Part shown: one piece after another, positions 5,872-11,314 of the stretch
Layout of the letters: each line of letters opens with the position of its first letter
How positions within the stretch are numbered: position 1 is the stretch's first letter
Source: Methanomassiliicoccales archaeon PtaU1.Bin124
GTDB lineage: Archaea; Thermoplasmatota; Thermoplasmata; Methanomassiliicoccales; UBA472
DNA length: 64,000 bases
Direction: 5' to 3'
NCBI GenBank assembly: GCA_002067865.1
Contig: MVRC01000005.1
Coordinates: forward strand, 62,001 to 126,000
Translations under genes and position numbers: made by a program
The notes under the pieces: model-generated
The model's input: only the letters and a program-made list of their open reading frames with translations
Told to the model about the DNA's origin: nothing
Databases searched by the model: none

Positions 5872-6279
5872 ATGGTAGAGGACGAAGAGCTGGAAATGAT
5901 CCGGGCAAGAAAGCTCAATGCGTTGATGGAAGGTAAGAACAAAGGAGATGTAAGAATGGCTGGAACCGTTGAGATAATCACTGATGCAACTTTCGAGAGC
6001 TTCATCAAGAAGGACAAGCTGGTTGTCATTGATTGCTGGGCCCCGTGGTGCGGCCCTTGCCGCGCACTGGCCCCGAAGATCGAGGAGCTCTCCAATGAAA
6101 TGGCCGACAAGATATCCTTCGGCAAGCTCAACACCGATGAGAACGAAGGAGTGCCAATGCGCTTCAATATCTCTGCCATACCCACCCTGCTCATCTTCAA
6201 GAACGGCAACTTCGTGGACAGGATCGTCGGGTCTGGAACGAAAGAGTTCATGAAGTCGAAGTTTGAAAAACACCTTTGA
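5872..6279 (+). CDS. Thioredoxin with charged N-terminal extension
   Basis: Cytosolic thiol-disulfide oxidoreductase. The thioredoxin fold occupies about residues 30-135, with the active site WCGPC (Cys60, Cys63) and cis-proline segment SAIPTLLIFKNG. Residues 1-28 form a charged helix-like extension (EDEELEMIRARKLNALM) not needed for the fold and reminiscent of the N-terminus of PDCD5-type proteins. A second ATG at 5956 has its own ribosome-binding-like AAAGGAGA and would give a standard thioredoxin, so two products are possible. Thioredoxin reductase is the next gene. Confidence 0.9.
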   Translation: MVEDEELEMIRARKLNALMEGKNKGDVRMAGTVEIITDATFESFIKKDKLVVIDCWAPWCGPCRALAPKIEELSNEMADKISFGKLNTDENEGVPMRFNISAIPTLLIFKNGNFVDRIVGSGTKEFMKSKFEKHL

Positions 6280-6289
6280 TCCTTTTCTC

Positions 6290-6305
6290 AAGGGCGAATG
6301 CCCTT
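6290..6305 (+). terminator. Stem-loop terminator after thioredoxin gene
   Basis: AAGGGC-GAAT-GCCCTT forms a perfect 6-bp stem with a 4-base loop ten bases after the thioredoxin stop. T-rich tracts (CCTTTTC) flank it on both sides. Confidence 0.5.
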
Positions 6306-6308
6306 ATC

Positions 6309-6326
6309 CTTTTCGTATACGAAAAG
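6309..6326. promoter_or_regulatory. 18-bp perfect palindrome, candidate operator
   Basis: CTTTTCGTATACGAAAAG is its own reverse complement over 18 bases. It lies 41 bases before the thioredoxin reductase ATG. The position and symmetry suit a dimeric regulator; the HTH protein encoded after the reductase is one candidate. A transcript hairpin is less likely because there is no loop. Confidence 0.5.
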
Positions 6327-6367
6327 CACTTTTAGGTAATGATGCCAATATATCAGGCGGTGCTGTG

Positions 6368-7255
6368 ATGCAATGCGATATCGTCGTCATCGGCTGCGGG
6401 GCGGCAGGCCTTCAGGCGGCCATCCACGCGGCCCGAAAAAAGACCAAGGTCGTCATTCTGGGCCATCCAGAATCGTCAGCGCTGTGGAAGGCGCACATTG
6501 ATAACTACTTCGGGGTCCGGTCGATCACTGGAAAGGAGATGCTGGAGATCGGGATGGAACAGGCCAGGGAGGTAGGGGTGGAGATCGTTGCCGAGGAGGC
6601 GATCACCCTGGGCAGGACCGATTCAGGGTTCAAGGTGACTACCGATGGCATGAAGGAATTGGAGTGCAAGGCTCTGATCATGGCAACTGGCATCTCCCGC
6701 ACCAAGCTGAACGTGCCGGGGGAGAGGGAATTCCATGGCCTGGGGGTCAGCTACTGCGCCAATTGTGATTGCCATTTCTTCAAGAAGAAGAGCGTGGCCA
6801 TAATAGGCGATGGCAGCAACGCGGCCGTGGCGGCGCTACTTCTCAAGGATTATGCATCGACGGTCTACTGGATATCACAGCAGCGGAAGGCCTCGCCTGA
6901 GCTGGTCGAGCGGGTCCGGGGGACCTCTATCCAGATGATCGATGGCTGGCCGGCGAAGATCACCGGCGAGCAGGTGGTCAAGGTGATGGAACTGCAGGAC
7001 GGGAAGGTCCTGGCGGTCGACGGTATTTTCATCGAGCTGGGAGCCAAGGGGGCGGCCGACATGGCATTGGAGGTCGACCTGGTGGCCGACGAGGAGGGCA
7101 GGCTTCCTGTCGACGCGAGGTGCAAGACCGAGGTCGAGGGAGTCTACGCTTGCGGTGACATAACTGGACAGCCTTGGCAGGTGGCCAGGGCGGTGGGCCA
7201 GGGCTGCGTGGCCGGACTGGAGGCAGCAGCGTTCGTACGAAAGGAAAAGGAGTGA
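6368..7255 (+). CDS. trxB: Thioredoxin reductase (FAD/NAD(P)-dependent)
   Basis: Flavoprotein disulfide reductase of 295 residues. It has the FAD-binding GCGAAG at residues 9-14, the redox pair C130-x-x-C133 in SYCANCDC (with an extra Cys135), a second nucleotide-binding GDGS near 147, and the closing FAD motif VYACGDITGQPW. I chose ATG 6368, preceded by AGGCGG; the frame is open further upstream but without similarity. The pyridine-nucleotide site lacks the usual GGGxxA/HRRxxxR signature, so it may use an unusual electron donor. Its substrate is presumably the neighbouring thioredoxin. Confidence 0.9.
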   Translation: MQCDIVVIGCGAAGLQAAIHAARKKTKVVILGHPESSALWKAHIDNYFGVRSITGKEMLEIGMEQAREVGVEIVAEEAITLGRTDSGFKVTTDGMKELECKALIMATGISRTKLNVPGEREFHGLGVSYCANCDCHFFKKKSVAIIGDGSNAAVAALLLKDYASTVYWISQQRKASPELVERVRGTSIQMIDGWPAKITGEQVVKVMELQDGKVLAVDGIFIELGAKGAADMALEVDLVADEEGRLPVDARCKTEVEGVYACGDITGQPWQVARAVGQGCVAGLEAAAFVRKEKE

Positions 7256-7259
7256 GCAC

Positions 7260-7781
7260 ATGACGTTCGTGGATGAGCTGGTAGCGGGGATCCTGCGCAG
7301 CGAGGAAGGATTCGCGGAGGCTCTGCGCAAGATATTGGACGAGGACCTGAAGATATCCGTGCCTGAGTTCTGTCAGCTGACCGGACTGTCTCAGAGCACT
7401 GTCTACAAGATATTGCAGGACCAGAGGGAGCCGAACCTGCGCACGGTCAGGGCGGTGATCAAGGCCGTGCGGAAGCTCGACAAATATCCTGGCGGGGAGT
7501 TCATCGGCATCATCGCGGCCAAGCCGGTCCTGGTGAAGATCGAGGAGAGGATAGTCCAGGTCGGAGACCGTCAGGTCAGGGTAAAGGAATATCCGGCGGG
7601 GACCATGGAAGAGGCCATCATCGCGGCGGTGAAGGCGGAGAGGGATGGCGCATTGGCGATCGTGTGCGCGCCCATCATCGCACCGACCATCGAGAAGATA
7701 TTGAGGATCCCGGTCCAGGTGGTCATCCCGCGCGAGAGCGTGGTCAGGGCGATCGATCAGGCGGCGCAAAAGGTGTTCTAG
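7260..7781 (+). CDS. HTH transcriptional regulator with C-terminal sensor-like domain
   Basis: A 173-residue protein. Residues about 30-75 form an XRE/Cro-like helix-turn-helix (ISVPEFCQLTGLSQSTVYKILQ, then REPNLRTVRAVIKAV). The C-terminal domain (about 85-173) is alpha/beta, ending IVCAPIIAPTIEKILRIPVQVVIP, and resembles the domain of the archaeal COG1709 regulators. It starts four bases after the thioredoxin reductase stop and so probably shares its transcript. It may respond to redox state or a small ligand, but nothing in the sequence proves this. Confidence 0.75.
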   Translation: MTFVDELVAGILRSEEGFAEALRKILDEDLKISVPEFCQLTGLSQSTVYKILQDQREPNLRTVRAVIKAVRKLDKYPGGEFIGIIAAKPVLVKIEERIVQVGDRQVRVKEYPAGTMEEAIIAAVKAERDGALAIVCAPIIAPTIEKILRIPVQVVIPRESVVRAIDQAAQKVF

Positions 7782-7782
7782 A

Positions 7783-8550
7783 TCAGGCAGGCCGCTGCTG
7801 GGACTGGATGGTCTCCTGCTCCAGCTCGGCGAGTATCCTCTTCCTGAGCGCAAGGAACGCCGGGTCGGCCCGGTCCCTGGGGCGAGGTTGCTTGACCTCG
7901 AAGACCTCCTTGATCCGGCTAGGCCTGGAGGTCAGCACGACAACACGGTCCGCTAGGAACACCGCCTCATCCACCGAGTGCGTGACGAACAGGACCGTCT
8001 TCCTCGTTTCTTCCCAGATGCGCAAAAGCTCCTTCTGCATCTGATTTCTGGTCTGTGCATCCAGCGCTCCGAACGGTTCGTCCATGAGGAGGATCTCTGG
8101 GTCGTTGGCGAGCGCTCTGGCGATCCCGACCCGCTGCTTCATGCCGCCCGATAATTGCTTAGGGAGGTAGCTCTCGAAACCCTTCAGCCCCACCAATTCG
8201 ATGTACTTGTCAGACCGGACCTTACGCTCCGCGACATCCAAGCCCTTGATCTCCAGCCCGAACTCCACGTTCTTCCGGACATTGCGCCATGGCAGGAGGG
8301 CGAACTCCTGGAAGACCATGCCCCGGTCAGAACCAGGCCCATTGACCTCCTTGCCATCGAGCATCAGGCTTCCAGATGTCCTCTCTTCAAGTCCAGCCAC
8401 GATCCTAAGGACCGTCGTTTTTCCGCAGCCAGATGGGCCTAGGATGCAGACGAACTCCCCCTCCTTCACATCATAGGTGAAGTCGTCGATTGCGACCATG
8501 GTCCCTTCTTCCTTGGGGAATTCCTTGTGAAGGTTCTTGATCTGCAACAT
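7783..8550 (-). CDS. NitT/TauT-family ABC importer, ATP-binding subunit
   Basis: ATPase of 255 residues of the nitrate/sulfonate/taurine importer group. Motifs are Walker A GPSGCGKTT, Q-loop FQEFALLPW, signature LSGGMKQR, Walker B ILLMDEPFGALD and the switch HSVDEAVFLADR, all typical of SsuB/TauB. The frame opens at 8589, but the ATG at 8550 (MLQIKNLHKEFP) fits the family. It is the last gene of a three-gene operon (binding protein, permease, ATPase), four bases after the permease stop. The actual substrate is unknown. Confidence 0.92.
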   Translation of the reverse strand: MLQIKNLHKEFPKEEGTMVAIDDFTYDVKEGEFVCILGPSGCGKTTVLRIVAGLEERTSGSLMLDGKEVNGPGSDRGMVFQEFALLPWRNVRKNVEFGLEIKGLDVAERKVRSDKYIELVGLKGFESYLPKQLSGGMKQRVGIARALANDPEILLMDEPFGALDAQTRNQMQKELLRIWEETRKTVLFVTHSVDEAVFLADRVVVLTSRPSRIKEVFEVKQPRPRDRADPAFLALRKRILAELEQETIQSQQRPA

Positions 8551-8554
8551 TTGC

Positions 8555-9379
8555 CTACTCCCCCCTGGTCTTGAGGATGTAGTTCTCAATGTACTCTGCC
8601 AGGCTGACCGTGCTCAGGCCCAGCACTGCAAGGACGATGATCCCTGCGTATGCGTTCTCGATGGGCGCGTTGAATGCATAGTACCAGATGTACAATCCCA
8701 GGCCGCCCCCGATGGCCATGATCATCTCTGCCGCAACTATGCACATCCAGGCCACGCCCAGGCCGATGCGCACACCGGTCATCATGTAAGGAAGCGTGAA
8801 CGGAACGACGATCTTGTTGAAGATCTGCAATCTTGAAGCGCCCTGCGTCTTTGCCGCATCATAGTAGATGGGATCGACGCTCTTGACACCGAACGATACA
8901 CTGGTGATTATCGGGAAGACCGCTCCAATGGTGATGGCCAGGACCGGACCCCAGATATAGCTGAAGAGGACGAAGAATATCGGCACCCAAACGATCGGCG
9001 GTATGGGACGGAATATCTCCACGATGGGCTTCAACAATATCTCTGTGGTACGGGAGAAACCCATCAGAAGGCCAGCAGGGACACCGATCGCAAACGCGAT
9101 GATGAACCCCAACCCGAACCTCTGCACGCTGGCCCAGATATTTTCCCACATGGTCGTGCCAAATATCGGGTCTGGTCCGGAGAACGACGTGACCAGCGCA
9201 TCCCATACCTTGCCAGGTCCTGGCAGATAATCAGAATGGAGCACGACGGATGCGATCTGCCAGATCGCGATAAAAACGACTAATGAGATGATCGTGAACA
9301 GTACTTGCCGATACATGGTGTCGGCCAGAAGGAGGCCTTTCAGCCGCTTGACGAATTTTCTTCCCTTCTGGTCTTCCAT
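8555..9379 (-). CDS. NitT/TauT-family ABC importer, permease subunit
   Basis: Membrane protein of 274 residues with about six transmembrane segments, similar to SsuC/TauC. The EAA loop that docks on the ATPase is visible as DAAKTQGASRLQIFNKIVVPFTLPYMMTG split around the conserved G. The family motif RPIPPIVWVPIFF is also present. It lies between the binding-protein and ATPase genes, 67 bases after the former. Confidence 0.92.
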   Translation of the reverse strand: MEDQKGRKFVKRLKGLLLADTMYRQVLFTIISLVVFIAIWQIASVVLHSDYLPGPGKVWDALVTSFSGPDPIFGTTMWENIWASVQRFGLGFIIAFAIGVPAGLLMGFSRTTEILLKPIVEIFRPIPPIVWVPIFFVLFSYIWGPVLAITIGAVFPIITSVSFGVKSVDPIYYDAAKTQGASRLQIFNKIVVPFTLPYMMTGVRIGLGVAWMCIVAAEMIMAIGGGLGLYIWYYAFNAPIENAYAGIIVLAVLGLSTVSLAEYIENYILKTRGE

Positions 9380-9446: not shown

Positions 9447-10553
9447 TCATGTTCCAGCTAGCCTGATCTCATATCCCTGTTGATTGGCATAATAGATGAG
9501 CAACAGGTGCTGGATGGAACCGGGTCCAGGAGTGGCCACGGTCTTATTCGCCAGGTCCGCGAACGTGTTGATGGAGTTCGCCACGACGATGGCGGATCCC
9601 TCGGCGTTCGCCAGGGCAACGATCTTGATGTCGGTGCCGGCGTTGATGCGCTGCTGCAGGGCAGGCGGGGCACCCAGATAGGCAACATCAATGGCGTTGG
9701 CCGCGAAAGCGGTCATGACCGCAGGACCCGCAGAGAAGCCTGCCGGGTTCGGCGTAGTTACCGTAACCCCATACATCTCGAACAGAGTTTGACCTCCCCA
9801 GAGGGTGGTGTTCATGGCGATGACGCGGGCGAACTGATGCAGGTCACCCGTCAGATAGCCCATGCTGACAGTTCCCAATATCGTGGAGCTGGGCTGGATG
9901 GTCTGTGCTGCCTGATAATAGGAGAGGTCAACGATGTTGTTGATGTAGTTGGTGCTGTTGGAGAAGCCTCTCTCCTGCAATTTCGCGGAGGTCACGATGT
10001 TCAGATCGATGAACTGGTCGACATAGAATGCCATGTAGTCCTTGACCTGCTGCGTTATCTCACTGACGAACTTGATGTGTTCAGTGGCGTTCTCGACCAC
10101 GACGGTCGACCTGCCGCTGAAGGCGGCTCCGATCTCCAAGGCCTTGGTATAGTTCGGCGAGGTCGGGTCGGACAGAGCGTTTTCCAACCACTGGTTCGCT
10201 ACGATATCGGCCTTTATGATGCGGGCCAATAGCTCTGCGTTGTTCCCGCTCTCCGCCCAGGCGGTCCTGGTCGCGATCACACAGCACGGGTGATTTTCCC
10301 AAACGTCCCCGGACCAGATAAGGATCTTACCGGTCCCAGCTACGACCGAGTCAGAGACATATGGCTCCCAAGATACCCCTGCTGACACGGTCCCGTTCGA
10401 AATGGCCGTCTTCTGCAGGCCTGGCGCTACAATGCTGTAGTAGACCGTCTTGTTCGGCTTGTTCCCGTTCATCGTAGTGAACGCGAAAACACCGGCAATG
10501 ACGATCGCCACGACCGCGATCACGGCGATGATGGTCAAAGTCCTCTTCTCCAT
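9447..10553 (-). CDS. NitT/TauT-type substrate-binding protein with circularly permuted lobes
   Basis: Membrane-anchored binding protein of 368 residues. Residues 6-27 are a signal/anchor helix. In this family the order is normally lobe I (GYLTGDLHQ, YLGAPPAL, ANAEGSAIVV, TVATPGPGSIQHLLL) followed by lobe II (VAPGLQKTAI, GVSWEPYVSD, ENHPCCVIA). Here the lobe II module comes first (about 35-210) and the lobe I module last (about 226-368, ending YEIRLAGT). The break falls where family members run on from LAGT into the K-T-V-Y-Y segment. The frame is intact and the operon complete, so the protein looks functional. Start: ATG 10553 after AAGGTG; a GTG lies at 10562. Confidence 0.88.
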   Translation of the reverse strand: MEKRTLTIIAVIAVVAIVIAGVFAFTTMNGNKPNKTVYYSIVAPGLQKTAISNGTVSAGVSWEPYVSDSVVAGTGKILIWSGDVWENHPCCVIATRTAWAESGNNAELLARIIKADIVANQWLENALSDPTSPNYTKALEIGAAFSGRSTVVVENATEHIKFVSEITQQVKDYMAFYVDQFIDLNIVTSAKLQERGFSNSTNYINNIVDLSYYQAAQTIQPSSTILGTVSMGYLTGDLHQFARVIAMNTTLWGGQTLFEMYGVTVTTPNPAGFSAGPAVMTAFAANAIDVAYLGAPPALQQRINAGTDIKIVALANAEGSAIVVANSINTFADLANKTVATPGPGSIQHLLLIYYANQQGYEIRLAGT

Positions 10554-10858: not shown

Positions 10859-11314
10859 ATGAGGAAGATGTTCGAACTAAATGTTGTCAGCAACACGCCC
10901 TTGACGCCTTTGAAGGACGTGGACGAGGTCGCCCTTCAGTTCCTGCAGTCGATCGGTTATCTGCCCAAGGGGTATGACCCAAAGACAGCGGCTAGAAGCG
11001 TGGAGGATTCCGTGCCCTACCTGATGTTCATGGAGTGCTTCCTCAAGAACATGAAGAGGGTCTGGCTGGTGGAGGAGATGACGGTCAAGTTCGGCACGAC
11101 CAAACCGACCATCTACAGGCATCTCAACAAGTTGAAGGCCATCGATATCCTGGAGGAGGTCGATGTGGAACGAGATGGGAAGTCGCGTAAGGGCTACCGC
11201 ATCCGTTATGGCGACCTGAAGAAGGCCTGGAGCTTCACCGAGGCGAACGTAGAGATGGCCATGGAATCTTACCGGCAGACGCTGGAGCATATGCAGAAGC
11301 TGGTGGAGGACTGA
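10859..11314 (+). CDS. HTH transcriptional regulator, divergent to the importer operon
   Basis: A 151-residue protein. The C-terminal two thirds hold a winged helix: VWLVEEMTVKFGTTKPTIYR, then HLNKLKAIDILEEVDV and a basic wing RDGKSRKGYRIRYG, followed by a helix that may dimerise. The N-terminal 50 residues are of unknown fold. It is transcribed away from the NitT/TauT-type operon across a repeat-rich region, so local control of that operon is a reasonable inference. A TATA-like element near 10833 implies a leaderless mRNA. Confidence 0.72.
   Translation: MRKMFELNVVSNTPLTPLKDVDEVALQFLQSIGYLPKGYDPKTAARSVEDSVPYLMFMECFLKNMKRVWLVEEMTVKFGTTKPTIYRHLNKLKAIDILEEVDVERDGKSRKGYRIRYGDLKKAWSFTEANVEMAMESYRQTLEHMQKLVED

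Follow-up and report, generated by a model that had tools for sequence, protein, structure and literature searches.

A gene on the reverse strand of the window (the whole stretch of DNA analysed, 64,000 nucleotides) encodes a substrate-binding protein which, judged from its sequence, is a natural circular permutant of the SsuA/NitT-type importer binding proteins, as the first-pass annotation had proposed. The best explanation, to which a probability of about 0.85 was given, is a working membrane-anchored, circularly permuted binding protein of the SsuA/NMT1 type, whose segment order most likely arose through duplication and trimming. Transport is an inferred function, as there is no experiment on ligand binding or transport, and the structure is a prediction whose coordinates were not superposed.

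The reading frame starts with ATG at 10553 and ends with TGA at 9447, giving 368 codons without an internal stop; a pseudogene was rejected. The start codon was kept across an alignment of 26 proteins with the same segment order (type 1, T1), in which the mean column identity was 46% and W-E-P, H-P-C-C, D237, H239 and Q348 were invariant. Both features expected of an importer binding protein, i.e. adjoining permease and ATPase genes and an N-terminal anchor, were observed (Table 1). The unbroken frame and the intact permease and ATPase genes had been described correctly before. Genes for thioredoxin, a thioredoxin-reductase-like protein and a Cro/XRE-type regulator (window 5872-7781) lie beside the transporter, a neighbourhood conserved in much of the order; in Archaeoglobi and Methanoperedens, too, this operon is adjoined by the regulator. 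No Rfam match and no tRNA were found in the window.

Table 1. Features of the binding-protein gene and its neighbours (window positions; residues are those of the window protein unless stated)
Feature	Position	Strand	Remarks
Substrate-binding protein gene, 368 aa, inferred circular permutant, order B-A (type 1, T1)	9447..10553	-	
Membrane anchor / signal helix, N-terminal, residues 1-28	10470..10553	-	Hydrophobic helix 3-28 predicted
Block B, residues 36-228	9870..10448	-	Matches residues 197-376 of canonical G002 homologue
Block A, residues 229-368	9450..9869	-	Matches residues 52-191 of canonical G002 homologue
New joint, canonical C-terminus to canonical N-terminus, residues ~217-227, AAQTIQPSSTI	9873..9905	-	
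C-terminal side of cut, residues 362-368, EIRLAGT, predicted inside lobe 2	9450..9470	-	Strand 362-365
HPCC motif, residues 88-91	10281..10292	-	Invariant in 26/26 type-1 proteins
ABC permease gene	8555..9379	-	PF00528, 81 bits; adjoins binding protein in nearly all relatives
ABC ATPase gene	7783..8550	-	PF00005, 111.7 bits
Divergent helix-turn-helix gene, conserved neighbour	10859..11314	+	Weak HTH_20 match below cut-off; synteny
Cro/XRE-type HTH regulator gene, conserved neighbour	7260..7781	+	PF01381

Against a close canonical homologue, a circular permutant should give two inverted local matches, which become a single match once it is rotated; this was fulfilled. The profile PF13379 (NMT1_2) placed its positions 147-240 at residues 30-125 of the window protein, and the last 151 residues alone matched profile positions 27-147. 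After rotation the same profile aligned in one stretch (27-240) with 89.2 bits, compared with 79.8 bits unrotated, both exceeding the gathering cut-off of 24.7 bits. TIGR01728 likewise changed from two inverted stretches to one (83.2 to 90.2 bits). Thus the inverted matches predicted for the separate halves were found, and the single collinear full-length alignment that would have refuted the permutation did not occur without rotation. In blastp against the canonical homologue of the same genus (genome G002, locus L032), residues 229-368 matched 52-191 and residues 36-217 matched 197-376; the rotated protein gave one HSP of 327 aa with 43% identity (E 9e-101). When all rotations were scanned against this homologue, the score peaked at a start at residues 227-229 (729, compared with 379 unrotated and a median of 573). 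A sequence search of the PDB gave the same inversion of segments against E. coli SsuA.

The TIGR01728 scores are below the 163.5-bit cut-off of the SsuA_fam model, and SsuA proper was rejected; SaoX was rejected as well (NF040735, 32.9 bits, 41.6 bits rotated, cut-off 300 bits).

The same order had been suggested as something to look for in related genomes, and a search of 150 of them gave best full-length matches collinear with the window protein. T1 was observed in dozens of independent assemblies at 40-58% identity. By profile order it is carried by many genera of Methanomassiliicoccales, other Thermoplasmatota, Archaeoglobi/Geoglobus, Methanoperedens, Methanohalarchaeum, Methanomicrobiales and some Bacillota including Thermincola; one match (genome G175, contig C41) is type 1 when the strand is taken into account. 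The plasmid search gave distant bacterial binding proteins only, all partial and below 60% identity. Several T1 loci have unusual gene structures. In genome G035 (loci L035 and L138, about 2590-3769 of L035) the gene is spread over two overlapping frames, by a frameshift or a sequencing error. At L142:3031-3936, immediately before a type-1 gene on its upstream side, there is a separate ORF of 302 aa with a partial match to block A; this ORF is possibly a half-gene or an unrelated binding protein. In two genomes the type-1 domain is joined to a long extracellular region, which by eye resembles fibronectin-III repeats followed by a C-terminal membrane segment (L037:4671-7436, G008) or a PKD/beta-helix-like region (L038:1-2700, G011). 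Both fusions are probably repurposed surface proteins.

A structure prediction had also been called for. The AlphaFold2 model based on the 26-member alignment was confident (pLDDT 92.3, pTM 0.86), as was that of the canonical L032 protein (pLDDT 91.2, pTM 0.85), and the lists of their elements were identical apart from rotation. The two models differ in what follows the anchor: in L032 it is the lobe 1 strand of GYLxGDLHQ, in the window protein the strand TVYYSIV. The last strand of the window protein is EIRL, which in canonical proteins runs on into the strand found here at residues 36-41; the observation that the protein stops at YEIRLAGT, where normal members continue into KTVYY, was correct. 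The strands TVYYSIV and EIRL adjoin each other in the canonical second lobe, by the established architecture of type II binding proteins, so the cut is predicted to be a loop inside lobe 2, after EIRLAGT and before KTVYY. In canonical terms, block B holds the second part of lobe 2 followed by the C-terminal part of lobe 1, and block A the N-terminal part of lobe 1 followed by the first part of lobe 2. The new joint falls between the two inverted HSPs and forms a loop between helix 211-216 and strand 227-232 in the model. Since the new termini are in a lobe 2 loop, the permutation divides lobe 2 and makes lobe 1, which is discontinuous in the canonical order, continuous. The claim of two lobes in swapped order thus holds for the permuted order only: a simple lobe swap was rejected, as the cut lies within lobe 2 and not between the lobes.

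Both interlobe crossings are retained in the model of the window protein, so the hinge is not obviously altered. The suspected change of hinge mechanics is thus not evident for T1; a cut hinge was seen only in relatives of types T3 and T4 (below). The membrane anchor, on lobe 1 in canonical proteins, is on lobe 2 here. Only one permease gene is present in the operon, so the permease is presumably a symmetric homodimer, and such symmetry may account for the inferred tolerance of tethering by either lobe.

Foldseek respects chain order. Searched against the PDB, the canonical model had 1006 matches at E <= 1e-3 (TauA 1.5e-18, SsuA about 1e-17, NrtA), and the permuted model of similar confidence had only three weak ones, the best being OpuAC (6e-4). 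Permuted proteins are under-detected by searches of this kind.

The family has at least five segment orders, the canonical one and four rotations. By profile order, 132 non-identical units were typed: 15 canonical (T0), 78 T1 with two more from one dimer, 23 T2 with six more from three dimers, six T3 and two T4. In window numbering, the rotation scan put the best start at about 227-229 for T0, at 308/309 for T2 (cut in lobe 1), at 80/81 for T3 (hinge 2) and at 336/337 for T4 (hinge 1). The cuts of T3 and T4 fall at a hinge and thereby remove one covalent interlobe crossing. T2 and T3 belong to family f2 of Methanomassiliicoccales; T4 was found in two Theionarchaea, where a lipobox-like signal immediately precedes the cut. 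The permutation is natural, as had been supposed, and it is not a one-off, being one state among these orders.

Different orders occupy the same genomic slot. In the window and in genomes G001, G002 and G038 the gene order is Elp3, a small gene (undetected in G038), regulator, binding protein, permease, ATPase, regulator, thioredoxin reductase and thioredoxin; in this slot the window has a T1 binding protein and the other three have a canonical one. Both flanks of the window align with G002 DNA at about 69-70%, and the alignment breaks only around the binding-protein gene. In the tree of permease plus ATPase, G001 and G002 do not stand beside the window genome, so the contrast within the genus may be due to replacement of the operon rather than to rotation in place. 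T0 and T3 are scattered in this tree too. The tree of de-permuted binding proteins (82 rows, 320 columns) implied at least eight changes of order. T2 and T3 together were nested within T1 (support 100/99), with T3 at two places within T2, and AU tests rejected a single clade for T0 (p 1.1e-6) and for T3 (p 1.2e-4).

An argument independent of trees came from the span between the SIQ-type motif and WEP. It is mostly 51 aa in the canonical proteins of bacteria, Borrarchaeum and G188, 60 aa in the nested canonical proteins and about 60-65 aa in T2 and T3, and the 9-10 extra residues of the long forms are located exactly at the T1 cut. On the sequence evidence, these residues look like a scar left where the ends of T1 were fused again, in forms that seem to descend from T1. 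The direction of the changes is inferred, and the reverse sequence of events, in which a long loop was present before the cut, is not excluded.

Permutation by duplication is expected to leave tandem single-frame dimers (PMC3320104), and such dimers were observed. In G021 a single frame of 731 aa (L036:4231-6423) has the order B-A-B-A with units 52% identical; the HPCC, SIQ and WEP motifs are lost in its first unit, as if this unit were about to be trimmed. It is the sole type-1 dimer and comes from one assembly. Three genomes of f2 have type-2 single-frame dimers (L060:2885-5254, L061:2669-5047 and L062:2973-5282) of 770-793 aa with units 70-86% identical, and one of them, G061, is a single-contig genome. 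The middle of each dimer is a complete A-B (canonical) unit. A canonical A-B-A-B dimer, the direct precursor of T1, was not found among the typed relatives. By the inferred route, an in-frame tandem duplication of the canonical gene would give A-B-A-B, and a deletion behind the anchor together with a C-terminal truncation would leave B-A. The canonical chain ends, which lie in lobe 1, would thereby be joined (residues ~217-227) and new ends opened in the lobe 2 loop. Further rounds starting from B-A-B-A could produce the other rotations, and a return to A-B would be possible. On this reading the fold, the cleft motifs and both crossings are retained, so the lobes should still close on a ligand and pass it to the permease in the normal way; mechanically, the chief difference is that the anchor tethers lobe 2 and not lobe 1.

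The same product could be reached if the gene had been split into halves which were later fused in the other order. The end product would be identical, and the G035 gene over two overlapping frames could be taken for such a split; that split looks like a frameshift, stand-alone half genes were not found as regular genes, and single-frame tandem dimers, which are the hallmark of duplication, were observed. Fission and fusion is thus unlikely, if still conceivable. An assembly rearrangement or chimera within the gene would also create an apparent permutation. The window belongs to a draft genome in 18 contigs; no support for a rearrangement was found, and because the same order recurs in so many independent assemblies at the identities given above, such an error can be excluded for practical purposes.

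It might also be supposed that the permuted protein is a decaying or repurposed receptor no longer serving transport. The two domain fusions, which have neither a neighbouring permease nor HPCC, point this way, but the operon of the window is intact, its genome has no second close homologue of the binding protein, and the cleft motifs are invariant across type 1, which makes this reading very improbable for the window protein. A working importer protein permuted by duplication and trimming therefore remains the preferred reading. The wider account is favoured by only a narrow balance: permutation would have been repeated (canonical to T1, T1 to T2, T2 to T3 perhaps twice, and T4 separately, plus a return to the canonical order), the dimers would be living intermediates, and T3 and T4 would work with one covalent interlobe crossing.

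HxCC was present in 126 of the 132 units of the whole family. The six units without HPCC include the decaying dimer unit and the two fusions. Near-universal HPCC and the thioredoxin and thioredoxin-reductase neighbours suggest a ligand related to thiols or metals, but merely as a lead without binding data, and the literature gave no firm answer on the substrate. A likeness between HPCC and the Thi5 motif CCCFC was considered and dropped, since the motif positions do not coincide.

The nearest characterized systems are SsuA, TauA and NrtA (PF13379, TIGR01728), which share with the window protein a homologous domain of type II fold and an operon with permease and ATPase; the window protein differs in its rotated order, its score below the SsuA_fam cut-off and its substrate, which is not established. 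SaoX (NF040735), the binding subunit of a Sec-assisted organometallic system (PMC13188914), is the second-nearest named family after rotation and also has a cysteine/selenocysteine-rich context, but its model has the canonical order and its selenoprotein operon is absent at the window locus. Naturally permuted binding proteins have been described before. TpMglB-2 (Tp0684) of Treponema is a circularly permuted glucose-binding lipoprotein ('Cluster Bc'), for which the permutation may be an adaptation to tethering according to its authors (PMC4990184). It and the window protein are both naturally permuted, tethered ABC binding proteins with both ends in one lobe. TpMglB-2 differs in its type I (cluster B) fold, of which the window protein, a homologue of the type II SsuA/TauA proteins, is not a member, and in its sugar ligand and an added fourth hinge crossing, and no rotation series was reported for it. 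The glycine-betaine binding proteins OpuAC and ProX are a permutation family (PMC2395249), i.e. type II proteins that are circular permutants of one another, and OpuAC is also the top chain-order match in the PDB. They are distant (<24% identity), were detected by structure, belong to another family with another ligand, and, unlike the window family, lack a same-locus contrast and intermediates. Permutation by tandem duplication and trimming, with intermediates, was described for saposin/swaposin and DNA methyltransferases (PMC3320104); what differs here is that the protein is the binding subunit of an importer, that it seems to have been rotated serially and that it may have returned to the canonical order. 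In open-licence papers, to which the literature search was limited, no report of permutation in the SsuA/NMT1 type was found, nor any in which a single family combines the canonical order with several rotations in conserved synteny; this does not rule out an earlier report. The multi-step rotation series thus appears to be the new element.

As a rule, circular permutation has been inferred by comparing distant proteins for which the intermediates are missing. Here the relatives carry the canonical order or three further rotations, giving a rare series on the rotation of a protein in evolution. The finding also bears on the mechanics of binding proteins, with the anchor on the other lobe in the window protein and the hinge cut in two sub-families. 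Orders, scars and dimers are found in close homologues, some of them in one slot, so the model of duplication and trimming can be tested step by step in this family.
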